Shown here: in pieces, positions 1 to 57,490 of the stretch
Numbering within the stretch: position 1 is the first letter of the stretch
Layout of the letters: each line of letters starts with the position of its first letter
Translations under genes and position numbers: made by a program
Notes under the pieces: model-generated
Told to the model about the DNA's origin: nothing
What the model saw: the letters and a program-made list of their open reading frames with translations, nothing else
Databases searched by the model: none
Assembly (NCBI RefSeq): GCF_900111935.1
Contig: NZ_FOYN01000004.1
Span: 124,001-188,000, forward strand
Origin: Halorubrum sodomense
GTDB lineage: Archaea > Halobacteriota > Halobacteria > Halobacteriales > Haloferacaceae
Direction of reading: 5' to 3'
Length of the DNA: 64,000 nt

Positions 1-30
1 ACGTCGAGCAGGGCCATCGGGAGCATTTTC

Positions 31-774
31 CTATGCATCAGGGGTCACCTCACTCGCATCCTTATATAAGGATTGGAAGTGCTGTGTGAAAATCTTTGCT
101 GTGCCAATATCGTAGAAGAGCATTCCCATGTCCCCCTGATTGAGATTTATCAAGACCGTGCCTTCGTCACTTACGTAGAACGATGTATCGACCTCATCAA
201 CTTCTCTGAAATCTGCGGCAGGCATATCATTAGCAACATCTTGGAGCTCGGGGCGGCCTCCCCAGCCGATAATTCGGACATCTACGCCCTCTTCTGCCTT
301 CTCTTGAATTAGTTCTCTGTCTTGCTCGGAGAGCCAGAATGAACGCTCAAGAATCCAGATTCTGTCTTCAGCCCCCTCAAAGAGTTCACGCGCTTTCGTC
401 GAAGTATCAGCAATACCAGTCGTCACCCATGCAGGATGAGATTGGGACTCCAGATTAAGGTCGTACGCGGGTTCCAACGCCTCAATCGCCTCCACAGCCA
501 TATCCTCAAACTTCCGTTGGTTTGGCTCAATCAGCTTCCGAGGGTTTTGTGCGTCCCAGTTGGTCGGTTGGACGCCCTGCTTGACTACAGCGTCCTCGCT
601 GTGTAGCTTGTTCAGCGTATCATAGACACGACCCTGTGGAATCTCGGCTCGGACAGCAACATCTGAGGCCTCCAGCGGTCCATACCGTACAAGAACTCGG
701 TATGCTGCTGCCTCGTACTGTCCCCACTCCATTATTGTCTGGAGGGATTCATTGAGTTCGTAATTGTCAGCCAT
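31..774 (-). CDS. TrmB-family transcriptional regulator with PLD-like C-terminal domain
   Basis: About 247 residues. Residues 15-70 form a winged helix of the TrmB type (tyrosine-rich first helix, recognition segment IPQGRVYDTLNKL). Residues 125-240 match the TrmB C-terminal phospholipase-D-like sensor fold (alternating strands such as RIWILER and VDVRIIGWGG), which in characterised TrmB proteins binds sugars or other small ligands. I chose the second ATG (774) because a TATA-like box (GATATACA on the minus strand, 796-803) sits about 26 bases upstream, fitting a leaderless mRNA; an in-frame alternative start is at 786. It is divergent from the CBASS-like operon with a 154-base gap, so it is the natural candidate regulator of that operon, but this is inference from position only. 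Confidence 0.85.
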   Translation of the reverse strand: MADNYELNESLQTIMEWGQYEAAAYRVLVRYGPLEASDVAVRAEIPQGRVYDTLNKLHSEDAVVKQGVQPTNWDAQNPRKLIEPNQRKFEDMAVEAIEALEPAYDLNLESQSHPAWVTTGIADTSTKARELFEGAEDRIWILERSFWLSEQDRELIQEKAEEGVDVRIIGWGGRPELQDVANDMPAADFREVDEVDTSFYVSDEGTVLINLNQGDMGMLFYDIGTAKIFTQHFQSLYKDASEVTPDA

Positions 775-856
775 ATCAACAACCACTATTATGGTTGTAT
801 ATCAAAACATCGCTCAGTATTTTCATATAGAAACAGCTTGCGTTGTTTCACTCAGG

Positions 857-863
857 TTATATA
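857..863 (+). promoter_or_regulatory. TATA box of the CBASS-like operon
   Basis: TTATATA in the divergent intergenic region, about 70 bases before the ATG at 929. This would give a leader of roughly 40 bases. It is the only strong plus-strand TATA match between the regulator and the operon. Confidence 0.5.
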
Positions 864-928
864 CCCCCTCCGCACCTTGTGATGATGTAGCGATATGTGT
901 AGGGACGCGAGAAGCGGGGTGCTGGTCA

Positions 929-1711
929 ATGAATAGTGGGTATCTGACGGGTGTAATCCCACGGATAGAAGCGAAACAGGAACATCTCGACCTCGCATCG
1001 AGGGCGAAGTCGATTGAGACTGTGATGCTTGACTACCCCCATGCACGCCGGCTCGACCAGAATGGCGTCAATCTCGCGGACATCGATGTCGAACTCATAC
1101 TCACCTCCACAGTACCAGACGAGACATTGGAGGAGTGGTTTCCTGCCCGTGAGCTAGCGTTCGCTAAGAGAGTCGGAGCAGATGCCATAGTTCCCTGCGA
1201 CCGTCCGGTCTACAATAGTGACGCGCGTTCTCAACGAATCGAGACCGTCCAGACCTATGTGGCCGACTTGAAGGAGTTCGTTCCGAAGTTCCAGAGTGCT
1301 GGTGTTGAAGTGGTCCCCTTGGTCAAGGGCGAAACCGAGTACGAGCGTCGTCTTTGCTACGAAGCGTTCGCAGAGCTTGGCCTGACGGGATTGGCCTACT
1401 ACTGCGTCCAATACTTCAGCTACGGATTTCGATACAAGGCCCTGCTTGAGCGCATCCATCGTATCGCACGTGAATTTGAACCAGAGAACATGATGCTAAT
1501 CGGCTTCCAATCGGAGAACTTGGTATCGGACTTTCCACCATGCGTGACTGGTGCGGCTGGTCAACGGTGGCTACGAAAATTCAACCCTCGGAACATGTCT
1601 GTCGAGACAGCCGTACGTCAGTACGATGTTTGGAGTCAACAGGTTGAGTCCGCTCTTGCGATAGGACAGGCACCACTCTATGCGTTCACGAACTCACGGG
1701 GGTGGGCCTGA
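929..1711 (+). CDS. TIM-barrel protein resembling tRNA-guanine transglycosylase/DpdA (first gene of CBASS-like operon)
   Basis: 260 residues from the ATG at 929. The order of motifs resembles the TGT barrel: VGADAIVPCDRPVYN corresponds to the Asp-containing strand end of TGTs, and VVPLVKGETEYERR followed by an AELGLTGLAYY strand resembles the GIVQGG-and-following part. A late IGFQSENL strand follows. The zinc-binding CxCxxC...H segment and the PUA region of archaeosine TGT are absent, so this is at most a minimal TGT-superfamily barrel; DpdA, the DNA-modifying relative in 7-deazaguanine systems, is the best functional analogy. Its stop overlaps the next start (TGATG), so it is translationally coupled to the CD-NTase. 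An unrelated TIM-barrel enzyme is possible; the family call is tentative. Confidence 0.5.
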   Translation: MNSGYLTGVIPRIEAKQEHLDLASRAKSIETVMLDYPHARRLDQNGVNLADIDVELILTSTVPDETLEEWFPARELAFAKRVGADAIVPCDRPVYNSDARSQRIETVQTYVADLKEFVPKFQSAGVEVVPLVKGETEYERRLCYEAFAELGLTGLAYYCVQYFSYGFRYKALLERIHRIAREFEPENMMLIGFQSENLVSDFPPCVTGAAGQRWLRKFNPRNMSVETAVRQYDVWSQQVESALAIGQAPLYAFTNSRGWA

Positions 1712-2649
1712 TGGGGACTGACATCGCCCCACCCGGATATCCCGGAAATCAGGATGAGAATGAATCTGAACAACAGAATACAGGTCAAACCTCGTTGGAT
1801 GACTATGCGGATGAAACTGGACCCACGAACCGCCAAGGCAAGACGATTAACGAGCGTCGGGAGCGACTAGAGCAGATTCTAGAAGAGGAGATGGAGGTCG
1901 TCGAGAGCCATCAGTTCGGGTCGTTTACCCGAGGGACGATGGTGGGCCCACTTTCGGAGGACTCCGATACGGACGTGATGTTCGTTCTAAGCCGTGAAAA
2001 ACACGGCAAGTGGGAACGTGGAGAAAATGGGTCGAGCAACTGCCTCCGGGCAGTAAAACGAGCACTGGAGAAACGATATCCCAATTCGAAGGTCAAAATC
2101 GACCGAAACGTCGTGAGTGTCCAATTCAGCGACTTCACCGTGGATGTTGCTCCGGCCTTCAAGGACGGAACTGGAGGCTACAAAATCCCGGACACGTACA
2201 GCGAAGGTAGGTCTTGGGTGCGCACGAACCCGCGAGGCTACAAGCAACGCTTCGAAGCAGTCGACAACGCCCGTGGCGGTAAACTCCAGAAAGTAGCTAG
2301 AGTGGCGAAGAAGCTCCGTGAGAATCGAAATGTTCCGGTTAGTTCGTACCACATGGAGGTGATGGCCTATGACCATGTACACAACCATCCCAACAAGGAC
2401 GCGTCGACTGAGGAATTAGTCGAAGGGTTTGTTGAAGAACTCCCTCGCCGGATTTCGCGGGGGACTCGGGACCCCGTAAACGGTGACCGATTGGACTCAA
2501 ATATGGACCGCTCGAATCGAAAAGAGGCTATCAGGAAGGCCAAAGCTGCTCGGAGACAGATGCGAGACGCAAGAGCCCATCGACAGACCGGTGACAATGA
2601 AGAGGCGAACGAGAAGTATGGCGATGCTCTCGGGGAGGACATCGACTAA
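1711..2649 (+). CDS. CD-NTase (CBASS cyclic-oligonucleotide synthase)
   Basis: 312 residues with the OAS/cGAS-type nucleotidyltransferase signature. A GSFTRGT motif (about residue 68) is followed by the metal-binding pair in SDTDVMFVL (about residue 90). The third acidic residue is in FTVDVAPAF (about residue 145). The C-terminal helical part contains VAKKLRENRNVPVSSYHMEV, typical of the OAS1-C-like domain. The first 45 residues and last 60 are charged and probably disordered. Such enzymes make cyclic di- or trinucleotides on phage infection that activate a co-encoded effector. Start: the ATG at 1711 overlaps the previous stop; a GTG at 1702 is also in frame. The adjacent SLATT membrane gene supports a CBASS role. 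No Cap2/Cap3 or HORMA/TRIP13 genes are seen, so it would be a minimal (type I-like) system. The product nucleotide cannot be read from sequence. Confidence 0.85.
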   Translation: MGTDIAPPGYPGNQDENESEQQNTGQTSLDDYADETGPTNRQGKTINERRERLEQILEEEMEVVESHQFGSFTRGTMVGPLSEDSDTDVMFVLSREKHGKWERGENGSSNCLRAVKRALEKRYPNSKVKIDRNVVSVQFSDFTVDVAPAFKDGTGGYKIPDTYSEGRSWVRTNPRGYKQRFEAVDNARGGKLQKVARVAKKLRENRNVPVSSYHMEVMAYDHVHNHPNKDASTEELVEGFVEELPRRISRGTRDPVNGDRLDSNMDRSNRKEAIRKAKAARRQMRDARAHRQTGDNEEANEKYGDALGEDID

Positions 2650-3188
2650 TGGACGGAATTCGAGATAAAATTCGCCATAGGGCGGAGAACAAGGCCGACT
2701 CCATCTGTTACACGTACAAACAGCACTTTGCAGCGGCCAACTTCTACCGTGCGCTTTCGCGTGTGCTAGATGTCGTAATGTTTGCTGCTGCTTCGTTGAT
2801 ACTCGCAACGAATTTCTGGGGTGTGATGCCGAATCGATATATCGCGATTCCTGCGCTGCTCATCGCCGGTATTACTGGATATCGGCGGGGTACGAATCTG
2901 GAAGACAGGGCAGAAGAGTTCCGCCGGTCAGCTCGTCGCTATCACGCACTTTTCGACGAGTACCGCGATTTCCTCGCAATCACAGTGGTCTCGGAAGATT
3001 TGAACGACGAGGAAGTTATGGCGAAGTTCGACCGACTCAGTGAGGACCGTCGCCAACTGAACCGGACGACGCCCGACGCAAATGGAGTCTGGTATCGGTA
3101 CATCAAGTGGAAGGGCGAGGACAAGATTCGAGAAGAGATTACCACAACAACCGAAACGAGGGAAGCCCTCTCAGGGGGTAAAGGATGA
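2649..3188 (+). CDS. SLATT-domain two-helix membrane effector
   Basis: 179 residues. An N-terminal amphipathic helix (residues 5-32) is followed by two transmembrane helices (about 39-60, VLDVVMFAAASLILA; and about 66-84, YIAIPALLIAGITGY). A long charged helix with regularly spaced Arg/Tyr (RAEEFRRSARRYHALFDEY) and a soluble tail follow. This is the SLATT layout, described as a pore-forming effector linked to nucleotide-second-messenger synthases. It starts on the last base of the upstream stop codon (TAATG), so it is coupled to the CD-NTase. The expected role is membrane disruption and abortive infection once the cyclic nucleotide is made. Confidence 0.8.
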   Translation: MDGIRDKIRHRAENKADSICYTYKQHFAAANFYRALSRVLDVVMFAAASLILATNFWGVMPNRYIAIPALLIAGITGYRRGTNLEDRAEEFRRSARRYHALFDEYRDFLAITVVSEDLNDEEVMAKFDRLSEDRRQLNRTTPDANGVWYRYIKWKGEDKIREEITTTTETREALSGGKG

Positions 3189-3613
3189 CACGTAGCCCCG
3201 CTGCTTCGAGCGCAACGATTGCAGAGGATGCGTTTGAAGGCAAAATTATTGCTGTTATTCTGATACCGGTCTTCCAGACGATATTCATTGAGATGGCGGG
3301 AGTGTTGAACGACGCACCTGCTACAGAACATGCGTTTATCGACCCAGCAAGCTACGCGATGATGTTTGTTGGTGTATTAGGATTATTCAGTATCGGATTG
3401 ACTGTCGCTTCGGTTGTAGGGTCCTATATTATCGCAGGAGTTCCGGGTGTCATCGCTTACTTCGTATTCGATTTGCTTGTAGCGGCCATCCTCAACTCTA
3501 TCGCGGTCGCTACACTCTTGTTCGTCGTCGGTATTCCGACGTTTGCGCTCATCATCTGGGCCAATCGAATGGTCGGTCAAAACACACACCGTCAACGTGG
3601 CTTTAGCAGGTGA
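3185..3613 (+). CDS. Small multi-pass membrane protein in the CBASS-like operon
   Basis: 142 residues with three or four hydrophobic helices (about residues 20-42, 55-80, 85-105 and 106-128) and a short basic tail. No known family recognised. The start overlaps the SLATT stop (ATGA), so it is the fourth gene of one transcript. It could be a second effector, a partner of SLATT or an immunity/assembly factor. The gene has no enzyme motifs. Confidence 0.65.
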   Translation: MTRSPAASSATIAEDAFEGKIIAVILIPVFQTIFIEMAGVLNDAPATEHAFIDPASYAMMFVGVLGLFSIGLTVASVVGSYIIAGVPGVIAYFVFDLLVAAILNSIAVATLLFVVGIPTFALIIWANRMVGQNTHRQRGFSR

Positions 3614-3732
3614 CCGTCGCCCTAATCAACCCAATCTTGGTTGACATTATCCAACCAAGTCCGAGTAAAAATCGCTCTTAAGGTCTGTTCCGTTATTTCC
3701 CCTCTCTCGACACTCCTCCGTCTTTCTCCACA

Positions 3733-3870
3733 TCACTTTTTCGAGACGCCGAGTTCGCTGACAACCTCTCGAAGCATGGCCCGAGAGATGAGCGACACGT
3801 CTTGACCGAGGTAGTCGATGAACCCGCCGTATCGCGTCCAGCCTTTGGCTCTGTGATAACTATACTTCGT
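3733..3870 (-). pseudogene. 3' remnant of a degraded gene
   Basis: Reading the minus strand from 3870 to a TGA at 3733-3735 gives about 45 codons of protein-like sequence (including KGWTRYGGFIDYLGQDV and ending ELGVSKK) with no start codon and an immediate upstream stop (TAG at 3871-3873). The composition is that of a real C-terminus rather than random sequence. I take it as the tail of a gene lost when the neighbouring cassette inserted. I could not identify the parent family. The rest of 3614-4034 holds no gene that I can support. Confidence 0.4.
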
Positions 3871-3975
3871 CTACTCAGAAGAAGTGTCTTGAGTAAAAGA
3901 AGTCACAAGGACAGCTCGGGTAGGAGTCAGGCTCTCGATTTTTCTGGAACACGAGACAGTAGAGGAGAGGCCCTA

Positions 3976-3989
3976 TTCAAACATTTGAA
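3976..3989. promoter_or_regulatory. Perfect inverted repeat, candidate operator
   Basis: TTCAAA-CA-TTTGAA is a perfect 14-base palindrome, with a further TTTGAA half-site at about 4003, located 45 bases before the HTH gene at 4035. The position suits autoregulation by that HTH protein, as in many toxin-antitoxin operons. Confidence 0.4.
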
Positions 3990-4034
3990 TTCTACCAAAA
4001 CTATTTGAACAGGGGGCACAAAGGTGGGGATACA

Positions 4035-4574
4035 ATGACTAATGCGCTAGCCGGGTCGTGGGATGAAATGAGCGGTCGAGAGCGTGTTCGAGCGGTGATG
4101 GAGACGCTAAGCGGGGCTGCAACGGTACAGGAAATCTCGGACCGCGCGGATGTCTCTCGGAACACGGCAGATGACGAACTCAAACAGATGGAGGCTGACA
4201 ACCGAGTCCACCAGACCCTCGTAGATGGCAAAAAGGGCTACCAGCTCAACCCGGCTAAGCTGTTCTTTGATGAGATAATGGAACTCATCGAGGAGCACAC
4301 CCGGGATGAATTGAATGTCGAACTAGTGGACATCAAGAAAGAAAAAGAAGAACTTGAAAATGAGTTCGGTGTAGAGTCGCTAACGATGTTCCGCGAGCAG
4401 ATGTTAGAGAACGAGGACATCTCGGCGGACGAGTTGCGGGAAAGACAGAACATCGCATCAACGTGGGAGACGCTCAATATGGAGGAGAAGCTCTACCGGC
4501 ATGCATTGCGTCTCTATGATGACGTACAGGACATCTCTTCGGCCGACTCAACTACACCGACTGCTCTCCCCTGA
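4035..4574 (+). CDS. DUF7342-type winged-helix protein, probable antitoxin/regulator
   Basis: 179 residues. Residues 10-75 are a winged helix (TVQEISDRADVSRNTADDELKQM), and the remainder is a long charged coiled-coil-like helix (DIKKEKEELENEF). It matches the haloarchaeal DUF7342 layout. The ATG at 4035 is preferred to a TTG at 4005 because it begins at the conserved N-terminus before the winged helix. Five bases separate it from the next gene, so the two form an operon. The pairing of this HTH type with a TumE-like protein recurs in haloarchaea and suggests a toxin-antitoxin or regulator-effector pair. Confidence 0.75.
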   Translation: MTNALAGSWDEMSGRERVRAVMETLSGAATVQEISDRADVSRNTADDELKQMEADNRVHQTLVDGKKGYQLNPAKLFFDEIMELIEEHTRDELNVELVDIKKEKEELENEFGVESLTMFREQMLENEDISADELRERQNIASTWETLNMEEKLYRHALRLYDDVQDISSADSTTPTALP

Positions 4575-4579
4575 TATTT

Positions 4580-5077
4580 GTGCTCTTTCTCGCAAATCGT
4601 ACCAACGTTCAAGCTCGTCAATTACACAAACGGCTCCGGAACCAGCTAAGGTCTGGAGGGTACTTCCATACGGTCCAGCTAAAGCGTAGTCCAGCGCGAG
4701 CAGCAGGTCCATACCGAATCTACGCTGAGACGGACCCGCGCATCTTCCTTGGTGACACCTCGTACCCTGAAAAGGAAGGTCGTCTAGAGGTCGGGTTCGA
4801 TATCAATACTTCAGCACCGTATGAACACTACCGGTTGAACTGGATTGAGCCAAATCGGAATATAATGGTGGGATGGCATCAAGACCATGGCCACGACGAC
4901 TTAGGGAAAGTCCATGCACAGGTAAACGACGGTAAAACTGTAGTTGAGCACGTATCGGCTACGTTCATTGATGCACATCCTCTGGAAGTATTCGAGAAAC
5001 GAATGGAGGCTCTCCCGGACCTTATCAAGTCCATTGAATGGAAAGACGGCCGTCCAGTTGGACTTGATTGGCCCTGA
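4580..5077 (+). CDS. TumE-like putative toxin partner
   Basis: 165 residues from a GTG start 5 bases after the HTH gene. The middle part (about residues 90-150) has the pattern of TumE-family (DUF6516-like) proteins: a YRLNWIEP strand, GWHQDHGHDDLGKVHAQV with clustered His/Asp, then a conserved HPLEVFEKRM helix. Members of that family are proposed toxins of two-gene systems. The assignment is from motif memory only. The first 50 residues are basic and may be wrongly included if translation starts further in. Confidence 0.6.
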   Translation: MLFLANRTNVQARQLHKRLRNQLRSGGYFHTVQLKRSPARAAGPYRIYAETDPRIFLGDTSYPEKEGRLEVGFDINTSAPYEHYRLNWIEPNRNIMVGWHQDHGHDDLGKVHAQVNDGKTVVEHVSATFIDAHPLEVFEKRMEALPDLIKSIEWKDGRPVGLDWP

Positions 5078-5129
5078 GTCATTTCAGCGGTTGTCTCGCG
5101 ACGATGACTCGAACTGGGTCTAATCAGTC

Positions 5130-5633
5130 TTAAACGCCAACCTCTTTCGCTCGCTGCTTCAGCTCCGCATCCTTTGCGTCAACTCCGTCTAGTGAGTTGA
5201 GTTCGACACTGGCGTCTTCCAGCGCGAGTTCGACCCGCGCGAGACTCCAACGCATCATAGCGAGCTGCCTGTACACGGTCTGAGACACGTACTCCTGTAC
5301 GTCCTCGATAGACGCTTCCAATTCATCGAATTCCTTAGCAAGTTCAACGACATCTACCTTTGTGCGGGCAGGCTGGCGGTCATGGGAGATAAGTCTCTTC
5401 GCTTCTCTCATTTTTTCGTCCGGGATAACCGCGACCTTCATTCTCACCCCGGACCGCGAGGGAATCTGTGACCGCTCGATTTCAATATATCCGTGTCGCT
5501 CTAATTTTCGGAACTGGTACTGTAACTGGCCCTCAGTTAACTCTGTGCGCCGCCGAATCGTCGACGTGGCCGCTTCGCCGTCTTCTTCAAGGACAGCCGC
5601 GATAAATTCACGCGTTTCTTCGGTCTGATTCAT
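5130..5633 (-). CDS. Winged-helix protein with C-terminal coiled coil
   Basis: About 167 residues. Residues 5-60 form a MarR/ArsR-like winged helix (STIRRRTELTEGQLQYQFRKLERHGYI), and residues 90-165 are predicted long helices (VVELAKEFDELEASIEDVQEYV). An AT-rich stretch with TATA-like sequence lies directly upstream (5641-5665). The ATG at 5642 is a possible longer start. It is convergent with the TumE-like gene. Probably a DNA-binding regulator encoded by the integrated element; its target is unknown. Confidence 0.7.
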   Translation of the reverse strand: MNQTEETREFIAAVLEEDGEAATSTIRRRTELTEGQLQYQFRKLERHGYIEIERSQIPSRSGVRMKVAVIPDEKMREAKRLISHDRQPARTKVDVVELAKEFDELEASIEDVQEYVSQTVYRQLAMMRWSLARVELALEDASVELNSLDGVDAKDAELKQRAKEVGV

Positions 5634-5642
5634 CTGAATCAT

Positions 5643-6102
5643 ATATAATTATTGATAGTAAGACTGTAAATGTGTATGGGTGTCACAGGCTTTCAAAGCA
5701 TGGTCGGACAGCCTTTGACGGGGTATAATTCGAAGCTTCTTACCAAGGCTTCCAGAGGCTTTGCCCACTATTTCCGACTCTTACTCATAGACACGCCCCC
5801 CTCAAAGAGTGTAGAACCCAAGGTGATTCTCTTGAAAAAGTGTATGAGTCCACAGCGAACAACTCGATACCGGAGAGAGCAACGACGAGGTACACCTAGT
5901 TATCGCCAACTCCCAGATACTCGGAGAACGAACCTCGACACGTAATGCGAGCGAGCGCGCGAACCACACACCTCACTCTCGAAGAACACTAACAAGGGGG
6001 ATACTTCTTAGAACAGGACAGGACTTGGAGGCAGCCAGTCGGCGACAGCACAGCAGTCGAGGTCAGCGAATCCGATATAGTCGGCGAGACCGTTTCAGGA
6101 CC
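5643..6102. other. Intergenic stretch, 460 bases
   Basis: The left end is the AT-rich promoter region of the winged-helix gene at 5633. The open frames inside have a composition unlike real haloarchaeal proteins. I see no RNA gene or repeat. Confidence 0.4.
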
Positions 6103-6342
6103 ATGGTCGACGACTCAGCGATAGACTGGCCCGACGACCTCGAATGTGGCGAATGTGGTGTAATCGTTGGTGAGGACGGAGTGCGTATCCAGTACGAATC
6201 TCTCTTGAGCCCCCTCGAACCGGAGTTATACGCGTGGTGTAATACCTGCTCTCCTGACACCGAAGAAGAGGAACAAGAACTGTGGGCTCACGTGAAAGCG
6301 GGAGACTTCAGAGAGCAAGCCCAATCGTGGGATGAATACTGA
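6103..6342 (+). CDS. Small zinc-finger protein
   Basis: 79 residues from the ATG at 6103. It has two Cys pairs (CGECG near residue 17 and CNTC near residue 46) that can form one zinc ribbon, and an acidic C-terminal half. Such micro-proteins are frequent in haloarchaeal mobile elements. Function unknown. Confidence 0.6.
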   Translation: MVDDSAIDWPDDLECGECGVIVGEDGVRIQYESLLSPLEPELYAWCNTCSPDTEEEEQELWAHVKAGDFREQAQSWDEY

Positions 6343-6413
6343 GGAACGCAGACCTTGGACGTACAATTCTTTTCGACGCTTTCGAGTGAACCACAGTCGG
6401 TTGCTGGTATTCT

Positions 6414-7352
6414 CTACAGACCGAACAGGCGCGAGGCCATGACTCTCTTGACTTCTTCCAGTTCGAAATATTGCTCATCGGAAATCAAAACGCTCGCGTG
6501 AGTTGGACGACGATTCGCTATGTCGATAACTGCCTCAAAGGGAATCGAATCACCATAATAAATTGCCTCGTCTGATGGAGCAGGCCCATCCCATTTCCAC
6601 AGGACTTCAACGACCTCGTTGTCAACTTCGACCCACGCGTGCGTCGATGCGCGAGATGGATGACTGGCCATAGCAAGTCCTTCACAATAGCGAACATCGT
6701 CGTAGACCTCGAACGCGTTCGTGCGAAGTGCCTCAAAAGCGAGTAAATAGCACGAATTCGCGTCAATACTGTTGGCACGCCATTCTTCGGCGACGGCGAC
6801 CACATCTTCCGGTGGGTTTGTCGACCGTCTTGATGGATTATACTTGACCCCATCAATCGGACAGGAGCCCGTAAGCACAGCGTAGTCTATCGCGCTCCCG
6901 AGGTGGCGGACTCGCTCTTTTGAATCTGCCAACAAGCGGTTCGCGCGTCGGCGTCTATTGAATGAATTACGCCACTTTTCGTATTCAATCATATCAACGC
7001 CAGCGTCTATGAGGAGGCCGTAAGCCTCATCCTCAGAGAGTTCACTACGAGCGGAAAGATTGCCAAGATAGTAGGCAATCGCGTCGTGCTGAGTGGCAAC
7101 TACATCGACAGTGCTATCATGAAAATTGCTTCGCTGGACTTCTAAACGGTTGTCTGTGTTCTCACGAGTCGCGGCACCGCGAGTGAGCAAAAAATGGAGC
7201 GTATCACGGGGGTTATTCATGTGACTCACATCAGTGGAGTGTTGGCAGATGAGTTCGTGGTCATCTGCTTCTATTGTTACCTCGGTAATTGCCCCGCTCG
7301 ACGGGTACATCGTGCTATCATACGAGTTAGAACGCTTATACTTAGCTGGCAC
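6414..7352 (-). CDS. Uncharacterised protein with transglutaminase/papain-like C-terminal motif
   Basis: 312 residues. No family recognised over the N-terminal half, which is rich in Arg and helical (for example SFNRRRRANRLLADSKERV). The C-terminal third has a Cys in NSCYLLAFEAL, a Cys in RYCEGLAM, then STHAWVEVDNEVVEVLW. The Cys...HAW...D/E spacing resembles the catalytic layout of transglutaminase/papain-like folds. A TATA-like stretch at 7368-7378 supports a start near 7352. Probably accessory cargo; the enzymatic idea is inference. Confidence 0.6.
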   Translation of the reverse strand: MPAKYKRSNSYDSTMYPSSGAITEVTIEADDHELICQHSTDVSHMNNPRDTLHFLLTRGAATRENTDNRLEVQRSNFHDSTVDVVATQHDAIAYYLGNLSARSELSEDEAYGLLIDAGVDMIEYEKWRNSFNRRRRANRLLADSKERVRHLGSAIDYAVLTGSCPIDGVKYNPSRRSTNPPEDVVAVAEEWRANSIDANSCYLLAFEALRTNAFEVYDDVRYCEGLAMASHPSRASTHAWVEVDNEVVEVLWKWDGPAPSDEAIYYGDSIPFEAVIDIANRRPTHASVLISDEQYFELEEVKRVMASRLFGL

Positions 7353-7677
7353 AGGGCCTCTATCTATATTATCAGTCTCTCATTTACTCATATGGCATTA
7401 TATTTTGATAGTAGCAAAATTCTCAGTTTGATGGGCCTGCTCAACTCTTTCTGGCAAAGGTCAGTCTCATAGGTTCTACAGACTGATTTTGCTACAATCG
7501 AAGGCGTGTAAATGTGGCTACTGTATGGTGGGACTACTCAGTTATGACACATGATGTATTATTTGTATTGCCTGAAAAAAGGCTTTTAGGGCCTTCTAAA
7601 CCCGTTCTTATTTATACTAATTTCAGAAGCAACATATATGTATAGAGTAAAGCGTCCGAAATTATGAGGAATAAAAC
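7353..7677. other. Divergent promoter region, 325 bases
   Basis: AT-rich stretch between the cargo gene and the integrase. It contains TATA-like sequences at 7368-7378 (serving the minus strand) and at 7608-7617 and 7633-7642 (serving the integrase). I found no gene here. Confidence 0.45.
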
Positions 7678-8844
7678 ATGTCCTCTAAACCAAACAATCG
7701 AGACGATGTACGAGTCCCGAAGTATACCCGGGAAGAAATGAACGTTGGAACAGTCAGCGATACGCTCCGGGGAGAACTGAACAAAAATCAGTTCACTCTC
7801 TACAAGGACTGGCAACTCGCGGTCCTCCGGTGGGCGTTCGACCGTGGACGCCGGCCGAGTCGACGGAAGGGCTACGCGAGGAACTCCATGCCCCACATCA
7901 AGAGCGCAGTAGAGCGGTTCAGCGTGTGGCTCTACACAGAGTGTGGATTCACCGTTGAGTTCACGGAAGAACACCTCGACGACTACTGGTACTACCAGCT
8001 TGGGCGGGACACGAAGCTCGACAGCAAGCGTCGAGAGCTGTTGAACGTTAGGCTCGTCCTCAAGCAGAGGGGGAAAGAGTGGAAGATTCCGGAGAGCGAG
8101 GAAATCTATCGGGACATCGCCGAGGAGGAAGCCGACCCGGGATTCAGAGACTGGTACCGTGACTACGAGCTGAAGGATATCAAGGCAGCATCTCTGGACC
8201 TCCACACGACCCCAGACCGAAAGAAGCTCTCCGAGGGAGAAATTGAGGAGTGGGGAGCGTACCTCGCTCAACGGCTTGAAAAGCCGAAGAACAAACTCAC
8301 TGATGAGGACTGGGAGGCCGAAAGTTGGAAGGTTCCAAGCCTTGTGTACGTGTCGTGCGACATTGGTCTACGCCCCTGTGAGGTGACCCGGGCACAGGTC
8401 TACTGGGCAGATATCGAGGGTGCCAGCAAGCCGTACATTCGAATTCCACGGAAAGAGGATTCGAAGCTGGGCAAGAAGAACCGCAACTGTCGGCTGAGCG
8501 TTGAGGCTGCAAAGATTCTCGAACGTTGGATAGACGAGCGCGAGACGCTACCAGAGTACAAGGACACAGATGCCCTCTGGCTCACGAGTGAGGGGAACCG
8601 ATACGTGAGCAGCACGCTCCGTCGCACGGTCATGATTCCGCTTCAGCGAGAGGCCGGCATCAACATCGACAAGCGCGAGAACGGCTGGTACATGATTCGA
8701 CGTGGACTCGGAACTGACATCGTCAACAAGGGCGGCGACATCAGTCTCCTGATGCAGCAGCTCCGCATCGACCGCTACGAGACCGCCTTGCGATACGTCC
8801 AGAATGCGGACAAGGCCTCTGAAGACTACTTCGACGTGCGGTAA
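7678..8844 (+). CDS. Tyrosine-type site-specific integrase
   Basis: 388 residues. The N-terminal SAM-like core-binding domain (about 30-150) is followed by a catalytic domain (about 205-385). The box I Arg is in SCDIGLRPCEVTR, the box II segment is MIRRGLGTDIVNKGGD with Arg in place of the usual His of HxxR, and the nucleophile candidate is the Tyr in ALRYVQNAD. A purine-rich GAGGA lies 8 bases before the start. It is 470 bases from a partial tRNA-His that looks like its att half-site, and it is followed by a small winged-helix protein. It is expected to integrate and excise the element. Confidence 0.9.
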   Translation: MSSKPNNRDDVRVPKYTREEMNVGTVSDTLRGELNKNQFTLYKDWQLAVLRWAFDRGRRPSRRKGYARNSMPHIKSAVERFSVWLYTECGFTVEFTEEHLDDYWYYQLGRDTKLDSKRRELLNVRLVLKQRGKEWKIPESEEIYRDIAEEEADPGFRDWYRDYELKDIKAASLDLHTTPDRKKLSEGEIEEWGAYLAQRLEKPKNKLTDEDWEAESWKVPSLVYVSCDIGLRPCEVTRAQVYWADIEGASKPYIRIPRKEDSKLGKKNRNCRLSVEAAKILERWIDERETLPEYKDTDALWLTSEGNRYVSSTLRRTVMIPLQREAGINIDKRENGWYMIRRGLGTDIVNKGGDISLLMQQLRIDRYETALRYVQNADKASEDYFDVR

Positions 8845-8915
8845 TCGACACGAGTAGGCGACAGCAACTACTACCATGCTTGAGCCACCTTTCCCAGACA
8901 GAGAAGTGACCAAAA

Positions 8916-9176
8916 ATGCCCGAAGGACATCTTACCGTTAGGGATAGAGTGTGGGATGCTGCGTTGACGACGCTCGTTAACCGCGGCAAGTTCAAGTTAA
9001 GCGACCTCTCGTTCGATGAATCACAGACAGCGACTGTGAGAAGGGTTCTGAAGACGATGATAGAATTGGGTTGGCTCAAGAAAGATAGCAAGGGGTCCTC
9101 CATCTATCGGCTTGGACCGAAGGCAGAGCTATTGCTGGACGTAGACGAAGAGATTATCGAGTCGGCAAATTCGTGA
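8916..9176 (+). CDS. Small winged-helix protein, possible excisionase or element regulator
   Basis: 86 residues with a winged-helix core (LSDLSFDESQTATVRRVLKTMIE, then a GWLKKDSKGSSIYRL wing). It is located between the integrase and the att site, the usual place of a recombination directionality factor, and it could instead control integrase expression. Confidence 0.65.
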   Translation: MPEGHLTVRDRVWDAALTTLVNRGKFKLSDLSFDESQTATVRRVLKTMIELGWLKKDSKGSSIYRLGPKAELLLDVDEEIIESANS

Positions 9177-9312
9177 AAACACTCACCACTCTTGCGTAGA
9201 TTATCTTTGGTTTCCTCATATTGGCTTCTGTGACATCTAGGGGCCCCTAAACACTTTTTAGCTCAAATCTATTTTCTCAATCTAACCAAATTTGTATATC
9301 GTTTTACTTTCT

Positions 9313-9355
9313 CCTTGTGGAGGCTGAGACGCGGGTTCGATTCTCGCACCCGGAC
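9313..9355 (+). other. Partial tRNA-His(GTG) 3' half: attachment site (attR-like)
   Basis: The 43 bases contain an anticodon loop TTGTGGA (9315-9321, GTG anticodon), the 3' anticodon-stem strand, a variable loop, a complete T-arm (stem 9331-9335 with 9343-9347 around TTCGATT) and the acceptor 3' strand ACCCGGA followed by C (9355). A C at position 73 is diagnostic of tRNA-His. The sequence upstream cannot complete the anticodon stem, D-arm or acceptor, so it is not a functional gene. This is the pattern left when an integrase inserts at the anticodon-loop region of a tRNA. The intact tRNA-His should lie at the left end of the element on the plus strand, outside the window. Confidence 0.8.
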
Positions 9356-9356
9356 C

Positions 9357-9560
9357 TACACGGCGGAGCCGTGTTGCGTTTTCACCGGTTCTCAATACAA
9401 CGAGAACCATCTGTCTCAAGTCAAAAAGGCGGGTCTCCGGGTGGTTCCCAACCCGTCCGAAGCGTACCCGTCACCGACTCCCGAGAACACCTCATCGGCT
9501 GGAGTAATCGCAGCTTTCGATTACAACGGTAGCGAGGCGAATTCATCCGTTTACCTGAAT
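9357..9560. other. Short intergenic stretch between att site and IS element
   Basis: About 200 bases of intermediate composition. The open frames look spurious. It may contain the original downstream sequence of the tRNA-His gene. Confidence 0.3.
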
Positions 9561-9573
9561 TGAGGCGCTAAGG

Positions 9574-9616
9574 CCCCTTCCTCAACGAACGAGCGAAGAG
9601 AGTGAGTAGGGAGGGG
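9574..9616 (+). repeat. IS left-end hairpin
   Basis: CCCCTTCCT (9574-9582) pairs with AGGGAGGGG (9608-9616) with one G-T wobble, enclosing a 25-base loop. Subterminal hairpins of this type are the recognition sites of IS200/IS605-family transposases. Confidence 0.6.
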
Positions 9617-9714
9617 ATACAGCGCCGCACGGTTCTCAAACACGTTCGACGCTCGGCCCACAGACCCACGCAATCGAAACAACAATACGCATAGATACGC
9701 ATAATACGTATGTA

Positions 9715-9834
9715 GTGAGGCGGAAGAACATCACCATCCGCGAAGACCAAGCCGAGTGGGTCGAGGAGAACCATCTTAACCTCTCGTCGTTCGTTCGCGG
9801 ACAACTTGACGAACTCATCGAAGAACGCTCGTGA
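9715..9834 (+). CDS. Mini ribbon-helix-helix protein upstream of TnpB
   Basis: 39 residues from a GTG start, ending in a TGA that overlaps the tnpB GTG (GTGA). The sequence shows a strand KNITIRED followed by helices WVEENHLNLSSFVRG and LDELIEER, matching a CopG/Arc-type fold. The same small gene precedes tnpB in other haloarchaeal IS elements. It probably represses the element's transcription, by analogy only. Confidence 0.65.
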   Translation: MRRKNITIREDQAEWVEENHLNLSSFVRGQLDELIEERS

Positions 9835-11066
9835 ACTACAACTACAGGTATCGACTCCGACCGTCCGACGCTCTCGAAGAACAGTTAGCGTGGACTGTCG
9901 ATACCTGTAGACAGGTCTACAACCACTTTCTCCACCGACTCAACCGCACCGACGACACCTCGGCGTACTCTGAGCAGAAGCTCCTGCCGAGTCTCAAGAA
10001 GTGGTGGAGCGACCTGAAAGGCGTTCACTCGAAGGTACTACAGAAGGTCGTACAACGGCTGTACGATAACCTCTCGACACTACGAGAGCGCAAAGAGAAG
10101 GGCTACCGCGTCGGGACGCTCAAGTGGAAGGCACCGGGCGAGTACCGCAGTTTCACCTACAGTCAATCCGGCTTCAAGCTCAAGAACACGGGCGGTCGGA
10201 CGCGACTGTGGCTCTCAAAACTCGGAGAAATCCCCCTCACCTTCCACCGCGACCTCCCCGACGACGCTGACATTAAGACCGTCACGGTCAAGCAAGAACC
10301 TACCGGGAAGTGGTACGCCATTCTCGGCATCGAGACGCCCGACGACCCGCCGGAGAAGCCGGAGAATCCCGAGAACTGCGTCGGTATCGACGTGGGGATT
10401 CTCAAGTACGCTCACGACACCGACGGAACCGCCGTCGAATCCCTCGACCTGTCCAACGAACGCGAACGTTTGGAACGCGCACAGCGCGACCTCTCGCGGA
10501 AACAGCACGGGTCGGACAATTGGGAGAAACAGCGTCGGGTTGTGGCAGAACGCCACGCCGAGTTGAAGAACAAGCGCCGCGACTTCCTTCACAAGCTCTC
10601 GAACTACTACGCTCGGGAGTACGACTTGGTGGCCGTCGAGGACTTGGACGCGAAGGGGTTGGTCGAACTACCGGGCAACTCGCGGAACCGGGCAGGTGCG
10701 GCGTGGGGGACGTTCCTGCGGATGCTCAAATACAAGTGCGAACGCGAAGGAACGCACTTCGTTGCTGTGAATCCGCGCGGAACGACGAAAGAGTGTGCGT
10801 CCTGCGGCGTTTCGACCGAGAAACCGTTGTGGGTGCGCGAACACTCCTGCCCGGCGTGTGGGTTCGAGGCCGACAGAGACGCGAATGCGGCGTGGAATAT
10901 TCTTTCTCGCGGTGTGAAGAAGCGGTTAGGAGCGGGACGCTCCGAATCAACGCCTGTGGAGACTGCGCTCCCTGTGTCCTCGGTTGTGGATGCAAAGCGC
11001 GTCGTGGAAACAGGAAGCCCCACCCTCAAGCGCGAGGGCGTCAGCCCGAGCGGTAGGGTGGGGTAG
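9831..11066 (+). CDS. tnpB: TnpB, RNA-guided RuvC-like endonuclease of IS605/IS1341 elements
   Basis: 411 residues, full length for the family. RuvC-I Asp is in VGIDVGILKYA (about residue 186) and RuvC-II Glu in VAVEDLDAKGL (about 270). A zinc finger is formed by CASCG and CPACG (about 323 and 343), and RuvC-III Asp is in EADRDANAAW. All catalytic residues are present, so the nuclease should be active. TnpB proteins use an RNA from the element's right end to cut the empty donor site and promote retention. GTG start overlaps the upstream RHH stop. The C-terminal tail is encoded within the right-end hairpin. Confidence 0.93.
   Translation: MNYNYRYRLRPSDALEEQLAWTVDTCRQVYNHFLHRLNRTDDTSAYSEQKLLPSLKKWWSDLKGVHSKVLQKVVQRLYDNLSTLRERKEKGYRVGTLKWKAPGEYRSFTYSQSGFKLKNTGGRTRLWLSKLGEIPLTFHRDLPDDADIKTVTVKQEPTGKWYAILGIETPDDPPEKPENPENCVGIDVGILKYAHDTDGTAVESLDLSNERERLERAQRDLSRKQHGSDNWEKQRRVVAERHAELKNKRRDFLHKLSNYYAREYDLVAVEDLDAKGLVELPGNSRNRAGAAWGTFLRMLKYKCEREGTHFVAVNPRGTTKECASCGVSTEKPLWVREHSCPACGFEADRDANAAWNILSRGVKKRLGAGRSESTPVETALPVSSVVDAKRVVETGSPTLKREGVSPSGRVG
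11018..11063 (+). ncRNA. Right-end hairpin and probable omega/re-RNA scaffold
   Basis: Perfect 9-base inverted repeat CCCCACCCT (11018-11026) / AGGGTGGGG (11055-11063), overlapping the last tnpB codons. In this family the 3' end of tnpB and adjacent sequence encode the guide RNA scaffold; the guide would start just past the right end of the element (after about 11070). The RNA boundaries are inferred. Confidence 0.5.
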
Positions 11067-11197
11067 TTCACGCGTGAGATGAAGCCGACAACTGAGAATC
11101 TATCCGCGTTCCCGCCCGTACTCGGGCTTGGATACTTGGCTGGCTCGTTCGGGTGTTAAGCCGACACTCAAATCAGCCAGCGTGTCAAGACCCACGT

Positions 11198-14402: not shown

Positions 14403-14610
14403 GGCGAGATCAAAACCACGTACCCTCACAGCGTCCGTTGCTAGGTTTGAAATATAGTTCTTCGCAAGTTCCGTACAAAAGCCCGCAGGTAAATCGGCTA
14501 CTAACAGATATCTGGTAGAGATACCCTACTGTATCTCGCATGACCTTCCGGAAATTTCTCTCATATCTGGATATCATTTACGAGTGAATTTACTATAACG
14601 TAGGTGTGTA

Positions 14611-14624
14611 CGCCCGCGACACTA
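14611..14624 (+). repeat. Left 14-base direct repeat flanking the toxin-antitoxin module
   Basis: CGCCCGCGACACTA, identical to 15431-15444. The two copies bracket the DUF433/PIN-like module and nothing else. Confidence 0.7.
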
Positions 14625-14696
14625 CCGGGCGAGAATCTACTAGTAGGCTCGGTGGACGTGGAACCGGCCGTGTGAGCGACGAGTGACTGCCGAAAA

Positions 14697-14705
14697 GATA
14701 TAAAC
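14697..14705 (+). promoter_or_regulatory. TATA box of the DUF433/PIN-like operon
   Basis: GATATAAAC about 28 bases before the ATG at 14729, consistent with a leaderless transcript. Confidence 0.6.
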
Positions 14706-14728
14706 GAGAACACGACCAACAGAAGCGT

Positions 14729-15004
14729 ATGAGTATTTCCCGCGACGAGAGAGTCCTCGGGGGGGAACCCCGAATCGAGGGGACGAGAGTCGGCGTCCGG
14801 CACGTCGCGGCCAGGGTCGTCGATAGCGACCGGTCGCCCGCACACGTCGCAGACCAACTCGAACTCTCCCTCTCCGAGGTGTACGAGGCGCTCTCGTACT
14901 ACTACGCGCACGTCGAGGAAATGCGTGAGTTCGAGCGTGAAAACGAGGCTGCCTTCGAGCGAATTCACGAGTCATCGCTGAAGCCGAAGGAAACGATTCA
15001 GTGA
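14729..15004 (+). CDS. DUF433-family antitoxin
   Basis: 91 residues. The N-terminus VLGGEPRIEGTRVGVRHVAA is the DUF433 hallmark, followed by a helix-turn-helix-like segment (SPAHVADQLELSLSEVYEALSYYYAH). DUF433 proteins act as antitoxins of PIN-like (VapC45/DUF5615) toxins. It overlaps the toxin start by four bases (GTGA). Confidence 0.88.
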   Translation: MSISRDERVLGGEPRIEGTRVGVRHVAARVVDSDRSPAHVADQLELSLSEVYEALSYYYAHVEEMREFERENEAAFERIHESSLKPKETIQ

Positions 15005-15369
15005 CAGGAGCGCGGATTCTCTTGGACGAGCACGTCGGGCGAGTGTTCGAGCGCGTGCTCAGCGAACGGGGCTACGAGGTCGAGCAGGCGAAGGACGTGT
15101 TCGGCGAGTTCACGGAAGACGCTGAGTTACTGACGTGGTGCGGCGAGCACGGTGTCGCGCTGATGACGAACAACGCGCGGGACTTCGAGAAACTACACCG
15201 GGAGATCGACCACGCCGGGCTACTGCTCTACTACGATCAGAACCGCCCCGACGAGGATCCGGAAGGAGTAGCGCGAGTCGTGGACGAAGTGTTCACCCAG
15301 TACGGAGCGACGGACATCGAAAACGAGATCGTTGACCTCGACGAGTGGTACGACTGGCTACACGGGTGA
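15001..15369 (+). CDS. DUF5615 PIN-like toxin
   Basis: 122 residues from a GTG overlapping the antitoxin stop. The N-terminus ILLDEHVGRVFERVL carries the first acidic residue of the PIN-like (Mut7-C/DUF5615) site. FTEDAELLTWCGEHG and LMTNNARDFEKLH supply the conserved acidic and T-x-(N/D)-xxDF motif. Expected to be an RNase toxin neutralised by the DUF433 protein. Confidence 0.88.
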   Translation: MTGARILLDEHVGRVFERVLSERGYEVEQAKDVFGEFTEDAELLTWCGEHGVALMTNNARDFEKLHREIDHAGLLLYYDQNRPDEDPEGVARVVDEVFTQYGATDIENEIVDLDEWYDWLHG

Positions 15370-15778
15370 CTGACAGTCAACAGTTCGATGCCCGACTCTA
15401 CAGCGCTACCGCTTTCTGATTCGAAATGTGCGCCCGCGACACTAACGACCGGTCTCATCTCCGGCGGCGTGCCGCGTCGACCGGGAAACCCTCGTGGCGG
15501 GCGGTCGCCTGCGCGGCGACGGGCGGGTCGCGTCTGCGACCGGTGTCACGCGCCTGGGTTCTCCGCGCTGTCATCGCTCCCATCGGGGAGTACTCGGGCG
15601 GGGACTGACGGCGCGCGGAGGGACGTAGCGACCCGAGGGGCTTAACGGTCCTGTTCGGCGGTGAGGGGGTTCCCGTTCCCCGCTCTCGCCCGTCAGCGGT
15701 TCGTCGGCCACGTGGAGCGATCGGTGGTATCGGCGCGTATCCGAACGCACTTACGTCCCTGTCACGGACCCACGCGCA
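15370..15778. other. Intergenic transition from accessory to core DNA, 409 bases
   Basis: Contains the right copy of the direct repeat (15431-15444), then a GC jump into core-like composition from about 15450. Frames here look like spurious high-GC open frames. I see no RNA gene. The asd promoter should lie at its right end. Confidence 0.4.
15431..15444 (+). repeat. Right 14-base direct repeat flanking the toxin-antitoxin module
   Basis: CGCCCGCGACACTA, exact copy of 14611-14624. The flanking sequences beyond the repeats differ. Confidence 0.7.
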
Positions 15779-16870: not shown

Positions 16871-17213
16871 TTTTAAATAACCAGTAGCGACTGGACCGCG
16901 GGTCGCGATTCTAATGTTCCCAGTGGCGCGCGCCTCCGAGTGGCCGCCTCTGGCGGCCACGAGGAGCGCGTGCGAGGGAGTCGGGCGGCCGGAGCGAAGC
17001 GGAGGCCGCCCGACGAGGCTGGGGAGGCGTGAGGTGCGGTGCCGGGTGGGAATCGAAGGGGCAGCCGGGAGGACGAAGACGCGCGACGCAAGCACCGCAG
17101 GGAGCGAACGGAGTGAGCAACCGAGGAGCGCAGCGAGCGCATCGAGTCCTCCCGGCTGGGGCTTCGGCGGTGTTCTTCGCCACTCGGCGATTACTTAGTT
17201 AAAAATAAACGGT
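16871..17213 (+). repeat. Dispersed structured repeat, copy A
   Basis: The sequence is gene-free and bounded by AT-rich ends (TTTTTAAATAA and TTAAAAATAAA). It folds into consecutive hairpins: 16940-16948 with 16952-16960 (9 pairs, extended outwards by CTCC/GGAG-type pairing), 16980-16990 with 17004-17014 (11 pairs), and a long-range 13-pair stem 17062-17074 with 17146-17158. Between stems lies the core GAGGCTGGGGAGGCGTGAGG (17015-17034), identical in copy B near 57358. Copy B is on the opposite strand. Open frames across it are artefacts. It may be a non-coding RNA or a non-autonomous mobile repeat. Confidence 0.75.
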
Positions 17214-57089: not shown

Positions 57090-57233
57090 GGTGGACACCA
57101 CCAAAGCCCCAGTCGCTCGCTTATAAATGGTTGATCTCGGATCCTCGGTGGACACTACCAAAGCCCCAGCCGCTCGCTTATAAATGGTTGATCTCGGATC
57201 CTCGGTGGACACCACCAAAGCCCCAGCCGCGAG
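57090..57233 (+). repeat. 57-base tandem repeat adjoining structured repeat copy B
   Basis: Units begin at 57090, 57147 and 57204 (GGTGGACACCACCAAAGCCC...), two complete and one partial, differing by single bases. Each full unit contains TTATAAAT and the CCAAAGCCCCAG tail that also ends the structured repeat, so the array looks like repeated additions of the element's end. Confidence 0.85.
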
Positions 57234-57490
57234 GCCGACGTACGCTCGCTGCGATACACAGTCGGTCGCTAACGCTCCCTCCTTGCGGTACTTGTGTCGC
57301 CTACGTCGGCCTCGCGGCTGCCCCTTTGAGTCCCACCCGACCGCGATCGCACCGCAGCCTCACGCCTCCCCAGCCTCGCGGCTCACGCTTCGCGGCTTCG
57401 CCGCTCGCGTTCGCCGCGTCCCTCGCGCGTGCGACTCGCGCCCTGTCGGGCGCTCGTCGGCACGCGCCACCGCACCGCGTCCTTATTTAT
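57204..57490 (-). repeat. Dispersed structured repeat, copy B
   Basis: Minus-strand counterpart of the repeat at 16871-17213. The shared 20-base core is at 57358-57377. The long-range stem is a perfect 19-pair inverted repeat (57224-57242 with 57302-57320). The terminal hairpin pairs 57425-57432 with 57460-57467, 57433-57435 with 57456-57458 and 57438-57443 with 57448-57453. Stem sequences differ from copy A but stay paired. The AT-rich end (TTATTTATAAAT) contains the stop codon of the CHY zinc-finger gene. Confidence 0.75.

Follow-up and report, generated by a model that had tools for sequence, protein, structure and literature searches.

A 41,973-bp integrative element in the tRNA-His gene of Halorubrum sodomense and its predicted defence cargo

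The question raised by this locus is whether a partial copy of tRNA-His(GTG), facing an integrase gene, marks the end of an integrated element and, if so, where that element begins and what it carries. The window analysed here is a stretch of 64,000 nucleotides from H. sodomense (G000; C6:124001-188000, window position 1 being C6:124001). The first-pass annotation had described 43 bases, from the anticodon loop through C73, that matched tRNA-His(GTG) "and no further", and had predicted from their direction an intact plus-strand tRNA-His with an identical 3' segment to the left of the window, delimiting an element of more than 9.3 kb.

The two ends of the element and its empty site

The predicted gene lies on the same contig and the same strand, 41.9 kb left of the fragment. 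The presence of the fragment and its exactness are as described, but its length is 46 nt: "no further" was wrong by three, because the identity includes the CTA past C73. The copy thus runs from the last two 5' anticodon-stem bases via the anticodon loop to C73 and on through CTA. The features that define the element are the following.

C6:91356-91429, plus strand: intact tRNA-His(GTG)
9313-9358, plus strand: putative attR, 46-nt 3' part of tRNA-His(GTG), 46/46 identical to C6:91386-91431
1-9312, no strand: right-hand 9.3 kb of the integrated element (41,973 bp in all), recognised by the direct repeat, the GC step and its absence from G074; the element's left end lies beyond the window, at C6:91386

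With both copies counted in full, the interval measures 41,973 bp, in agreement with the minimum size proposed. Its GC content is 53.4%, as opposed to 69.9% in 7.4 kb of left flank and 69.3% in 54.6 kb of right flank; low GC is also seen in the first 6 kb right of the element. A chance origin of the fragment is excluded by the search of its own genome, where the next match beyond the two tRNA-His copies has E = 0.45 (12 matches listed), and an Rfam search of the window and the 40 kb to its left returned tRNAs only.

Comparison with relatives, as suggested in the first-pass annotation, provides the empty site. In the Halorubrum genome G074 the left flank through tRNA-His (C6:89128-91431, 91.3% identity) runs straight into the right flank (C6:133313-133554, 92.8%), and the two matches overlap by exactly 46 bases. 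When the H. sodomense flanks are joined around a single 46-mer and aligned to G074, all 672 bases align, with 626 identities, 46 mismatches and 8 gaps. The junction between tRNA-His and right flank recurs in G005, G010 and G027, where the gene directly abuts the equivalent of window 9356-9474, while G017, the nearest relative on the left side, continues into ordinary chromosome after tRNA-His. The tRNA gene is present in 52/52 genomes of the genus, and a second 3' copy of at least 44 nt occurs only in G000, G030, G027 and G074. All of these copies mark element ends, so that the occurrence of the fragment in relatives without an element, which the annotation had named as contrary evidence, was not observed among these genomes.

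Terminal direct repeats with an intact tRNA gene, an internal integrase near one end and an empty site in G074 are what is found in integrative elements residing in tRNA genes. We thus consider it about 96% probable that a 41.97-kb integrative element entered tRNA-His(GTG) by site-specific recombination and that the fragment is its attR. An element of the SSV type, with a suicidal integrase, is ruled out because the integrase reading frame is unbroken, with its end 468 nt short of the att fragment. Regarding conjugative elements, no relaxase or conjugation ATPase was recognised among the proteins scanned, and the weak TraC/VirB4 matches of a HerA-like ATPase are far below cut-off. The element may still be mobile today.

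Insertion of an island in a tRNA gene is a well-known phenomenon; what is new here is this particular element, bounded with an empty site and with named cargo, of which no description was found in the literature searched. The closest published case is Genomic Island 3 (DV11) of Haloquadratum walsbyi HBSQ001, a 52-kb strain-specific insertion in tRNA-His with a 43-nt repeat of the 3' end (PMC3119063). As far as the available description of that island goes, the two have in common the tRNA-His site, the terminal 3' repeat, an integrase and restriction-type cargo. They differ in the placement of the integrase, which in the island directly follows the intact tRNA at the left end and in H. sodomense lies at the far end, facing the att fragment. 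On the strength of the island's description, as opposed to its sequence, the H. sodomense element also differs from it in integrase lineage, empty site and named cargo.

Integrase, winged-helix gene and right-end motif

The annotation had placed an integrase and an excisionase-sized winged-helix gene beside the fragment, and the right end does contain both, together with two copies of a short motif.

7678-8844, plus strand: tyrosine integrase, 388 aa, uninterrupted (Pfam Phage_integrase, PF00589, 34.4 bits, cut-off 27.1)
8916-9176, plus strand: 86-aa winged-helix-like protein, candidate directionality factor
9184-9194, plus strand: weak copy of CACCAnATTTG (two mismatches), in the same position class as at the G030 and FL176 right ends
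9284-9294, plus strand: arm-like motif CACCAnATTTG (one mismatch), 18 nt ahead of the att core

The same arrangement is found in two sister elements. Halorubrum ezzemoulense DSM 17463 (G030) has the integrase (53% identical), the winged-helix gene (49%) and a tRNA-His fragment in the same order, and Haloarchaeobius sp. FL176 (G306), which belongs to another family, has them at 58% and 75% identity with an identical 43-mer, the small gene again lying between integrase and att fragment. In both genomes an intact tRNA-His stands on a separate contig and is followed by the same left end, with 86% identity over 72 nt in G030. Each sister element is split over two contigs, and we infer the pairing of their ends. 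The leftmost ~65 nt of the H. sodomense element are shared with G030 and FL176, which identifies the left end as that of the same kind of element. This left end carries CTCAGCCTTCTACGGCTGAG, which resembles the anticodon arm of tRNA-His and is kept in all three elements with one loop base changed.

We refer to this integrase lineage as type A. It is rare, being detected in 2/52 genomes of the genus (E <= 1e-60) and 3/392 sampled genomes of the order (E <= 1e-80). Five plasmid records match it at up to 45% identity, one of them spanning most of the query at 31.5%; among viral contigs 77 pattern matches were obtained, none of them an integrase relative. An alignment with XerA shows the nucleophile, Tyr373, to be retained. 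The HxxR and H/W positions, placed according to the XerA active-site pattern, read YMIR and Ile (Ile364) in all three type A proteins, and this departure at two positions counts against the main reading. The predicted structure of the integrase was unusable (mean pLDDT 39.6). As for the 86-aa gene, both its place and its sequence are conserved in relatives; its winged-helix identity is more tentative, with an HTH_IclR match below threshold and a winged-helix-like model of low confidence (pLDDT 61), for which a comparison against the PDB gave 498 matches at E <= 10 and 0 at E <= 0.001.

Between the stop codon of the winged-helix gene and the core, the right ends of the three elements are unalignable and share no common 9-mer, yet all of them contain CACCAnATTTG. 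Within one mismatch, the motif occurs six times in the three right ends, a number reached by 0/150 dinucleotide-preserving shuffles, in which the best 11-mer of this shape occurred four times; the motif had been noticed by eye in the tested sequences, and the shuffle test covers any 11-mer with a free sixth base, a shape fixed afterwards. Its copies stand ~100 nt apart (positions 13/113, 12/110-113 and 5/105, the first G000 copy having two mismatches). At the same stringency there are four occurrences in the 41,480 nt of element interior and none in the G030 left end. Judging from this distribution, the motif copies are probably arm sites for the integrase or for the winged-helix protein.

Characterised archaeal integrases are reported to be bidirectional without a directionality factor, and integrases that target tRNA genes commonly use the anticodon loop and stem for overlap and binding (PMC8371274). 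The att core described here includes the anticodon arm of tRNA-His. Under the proposed mechanism, the tyrosine integrase would have recombined a 46-bp attP, which duplicates the 3' part of tRNA-His, with its counterpart attB, restoring the tRNA gene at the left (attL, C6:91386-91431) and pushing the old 3' part to window 9313-9358 (attR). The left and right copies have no differing base by which to place the crossover; by analogy with other tRNA-targeting integrases, strand exchange would most likely take place in the anticodon arm. The winged-helix protein and the right-end arm sites would then probably steer the reaction towards integration or excision.

A more distant type A integrase with a winged-helix gene was observed in G325 beside a 3' fragment of tRNA-Gln(CTG) (L198, L202). 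AGCAAATATGGT, the arm motif in reverse orientation, stands ahead of this fragment and also ahead of an intact tRNA-Gln located 18.5 kb from it. As a sister element in tRNA-Gln this candidate was rejected, since the intact gene matches at only 79% over ~50 nt, which does not establish an att pair.

Predicted cargo and its assembly

Within the window, the cargo of the element comprises a regulator and a block of three genes.

31-786, minus strand: TrmB-type regulator, part of the backbone (Pfam TrmB 48.4 bits; 86-88% identical in both sister elements)
764-1711, plus strand: TGT-like protein adjoining the CD-NTase (PADLOC TGT E 2.1e-135, the match starting at residue 40; the true start codon is probably an internal one)
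1702-2649, plus strand: CD-NTase (SMODS, oligonucleotide cyclase; Pfam SMODS 93.0 bits, PADLOC Cyclase E 1.1e-163)
2649-3188, plus strand: SLATT_4 two-TM effector (Pfam 30.2 bits, cut-off 27; PADLOC 2TM effector E 6.3e-12)

A predicted CD-NTase adjoining a predicted effector is the arrangement that defines CBASS, and the SMODS cyclase, the SLATT_4 effector and the TGT-like neighbour are all in keeping with it. The ancillary genes of CBASS type IV are TGT and QueC (Cap9). A TGT-like gene is present here, no QueC match was recognised among the proteins scanned, and the module is possibly type IV-like.

Left of the window, genes for a DUF499 ATPase, a DUF7680 protein, a DUF1156-type methylase and an SNF2-type helicase stand in a row. 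PADLOC assigns HmaC (2e-84), HmaB (2.6e-64) and HmaA (2.3e-47), all three far below the NCBIfam equivalog cut-offs. By gene content, the combination of DUF499 ATPase, N6-methylase and helicase is that of a DUF499-centred BR/Hma system, and the same row of ATPase, DUF1156-type methylase and SNF2-type helicase appears in the account of DUF499-centred BREX-related/Hma systems (PMC12839542); the present set differs from those systems in its scores and in the DUF7680 gene between ATPase and methylase. A PDC-S01-type AAA protein is encoded between this helicase set and a run of consecutive Mre11-like, SbcC/Rad50-like, NurA-domain, HerA-like and PLD-like genes. These five genes, at L011:309-9785, form a single operon on a mobile element, beside a DUF499-type system. 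An antiviral function for this cargo is predicted from gene content. Of the proteins scanned, none was recognisable as the product of a virion or conjugation gene.

Several lines of evidence bear on how this cargo was assembled. The PadR-TrmB-TGT-CD-NTase-SLATT block is common to both sister elements, and its CD-NTase is 99.4% identical between H. sodomense and G030, as against 53% for the integrases, a disparity which means that modules are exchanged; the cargo may be composite. It is conceivable, at odds of roughly one in three, that the integrase brought only a smaller backbone (regulators, CD-NTase module, integrase and winged-helix gene), and that the defence genes of the left 25-30 kb arrived later by other routes. 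In favour of such a composite island, when 31 element proteins were compared with the G030 and FL176 pieces examined, only those of the backbone and of a few small or regulator ORFs found matches, and the DUF499/methylase/helicase and Mre11-Rad50-NurA-HerA-PLD genes have no match in those pieces. The sister elements are incomplete, however, which makes missing cargo weak evidence; the shared leftmost ~65 nt, moreover, indicate a common left end, and the H. sodomense genome has no internal long copy of tRNA-His.

Far less probable is that the element is a defective or satellite provirus and not an integrative element of plasmid-like or defence-carrying kind. At about 30% identity, its integrase resembles those of haloviruses such as HSTV-2, and the HSTV-2/HRTV group provides full-length tyrosine integrase relatives (29-32% among the matches listed, from 49 phage records); a phage-type regulator, phrog_15150, is also encoded. 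The haloviral enzymes belong to tailed viruses, whereas no capsid, portal, terminase or tail family was found in the present element by Pfam on 30 of its proteins or PHROGs on 10, small ORFs aside.

Setting these alternatives beside the reading of an integrative element, we tentatively propose that type A elements may constitute a family of defence-gene carriers moving between haloarchaeal families and using an arm-and-core type of site. Such a site would combine a core in the tRNA anticodon arm, an inverted repeat resembling that arm ~45 nt inward of the left end, and paired CACCAnATTTG copies ~100 bp apart at the right end; the winged-helix protein, encoded between integrase and attR, would serve as a dedicated directionality factor. 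This broader proposal, with the roles that it assigns to motif and winged-helix protein, is a conjecture drawn from sequence comparison, and we rate it well below even odds.

The tRNA-His site as an insertion hot spot

Comparison with relatives indicates that the right flank is the remnant of an older, unrelated tRNA-His element and not pristine chromosome.

9359-9554, no strand: 5' remnant of a type B tRNA-His element, lacking the start codon of its integrase (88-94% identity to what comes just after tRNA-His in G005, G010 and G027; same start-codon loss in G074)
9555-11070, plus strand, right boundary approximate: later TnpB insertion into the type B remnant (ORF 9831-11066), absent from G074
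15421-15617, no strand: conserved 197-nt block (52/52 genomes of the genus), marking the return to shared chromosome and the right limit of the hot spot

A fuller version of the older element is seen in G027, where tRNA-His is directly followed by the beginning of another integrase gene (29% identity to type A) and the element, some 21 kb long, has a 44-nt fragment of the tRNA-His 3' part at its far end. This type B element uses the same attB as the present one. It differs in its integrase, which adjoins the tRNA gene as in the Haloquadratum island, and no common gene order was seen. H. sodomense retains only the first part of the type B integrase gene (9359-9554), while G074 shows, 3 kb on, a decayed second tRNA-His fragment (4/46 bases changed) that is the end of the older element. 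Since the flank beyond the fragment derives from another tRNA-His element, the hot spot extends to about window 15420, and the comparison with G074 and G027 places the 42-kb element in front of the remains of its predecessor, ahead of which the defence-carrying element would have landed.

Other small features were observed in this region. The TnpB element was inserted after TTTAC and has a small ribbon-helix-helix-like ORF just upstream (by eye). The 197-nt block is non-coding, lies upstream of an aspartate-semialdehyde-dehydrogenase-like gene (named from its translation), is 84-98% identical across the genus and gave no match against Rfam; it is a candidate conserved RNA. Within 14608-15440, CGCCCGCGACACTA occurs at about 14611 and again where this block starts; the ~0.8 kb between these repeats encode a toxin-antitoxin pair of DUF433/DUF5615-like type (by eye) and may represent a second small insertion site. 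Further on, inverted copies (76%) of an intergenic repeat of ~170-250 nt lie at 17014-17173 and 57209-57378; the repeat recurs in relatives, and one copy is near tRNA-Pro.

Many haloarchaeal tRNA genes are followed by units of ~100-160 nt at whose end the last ~20 nt of the same gene are repeated exactly. Units of this kind follow tRNA-His in 30 of 62 genomes examined (e.g. L038, L090, L088:6719-7110) and usually duplicate 22-24 nt (19-24 overall). In the H. sodomense genome a 20-nt tail copy (up to two mismatches) lies within 300 nt of 10/43 tRNA genes (e.g. L144, L159, L169), against 1/1682 pairs with the tail of another gene; the corresponding figures in G012 are 4/29 and 1/750. In the tRNA-His units the T-arm recurs in inverted form, and most of them fold as two hairpins (mean z -3.8 against mononucleotide shuffles); some units are tandem (101 nt twice in G019, 111-nt units in FL176). 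RNAalifold gave no consensus fold because the spacers do not align; the single folds agree. These repeats are possibly minimal tRNA-targeting elements, and are reminiscent of the E. coli tyrT rtT repeats; a literature search for them, including rtT/tyrT, found no match, which is no proof of their absence from print. That the fragment at 9313-9358 might be a relic of such repeats, common as they are downstream of tRNA-His, is refuted by the empty site: it is 46 nt long, has no inverted T-arm partner, lies 41.9 kb from the gene, and has on its right the flank that adjoins tRNA-His directly in G074, G005, G010 and G027.

The observation of 43 bases has thus led to a precisely bounded mobile element of 42 kb, with an empty site and with sister elements that include one from a second family. 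A single tRNA-His gene has been used in succession by two unrelated integrases, the younger insertion being stacked before the remnant of the older one. The system also provides a candidate for an archaeal integrase that would work with a directionality factor and arm sites. More generally, the availability of a bounded element with its empty site and sisters makes the spread of CBASS-like and DUF499-type defence modules among haloarchaea directly testable.
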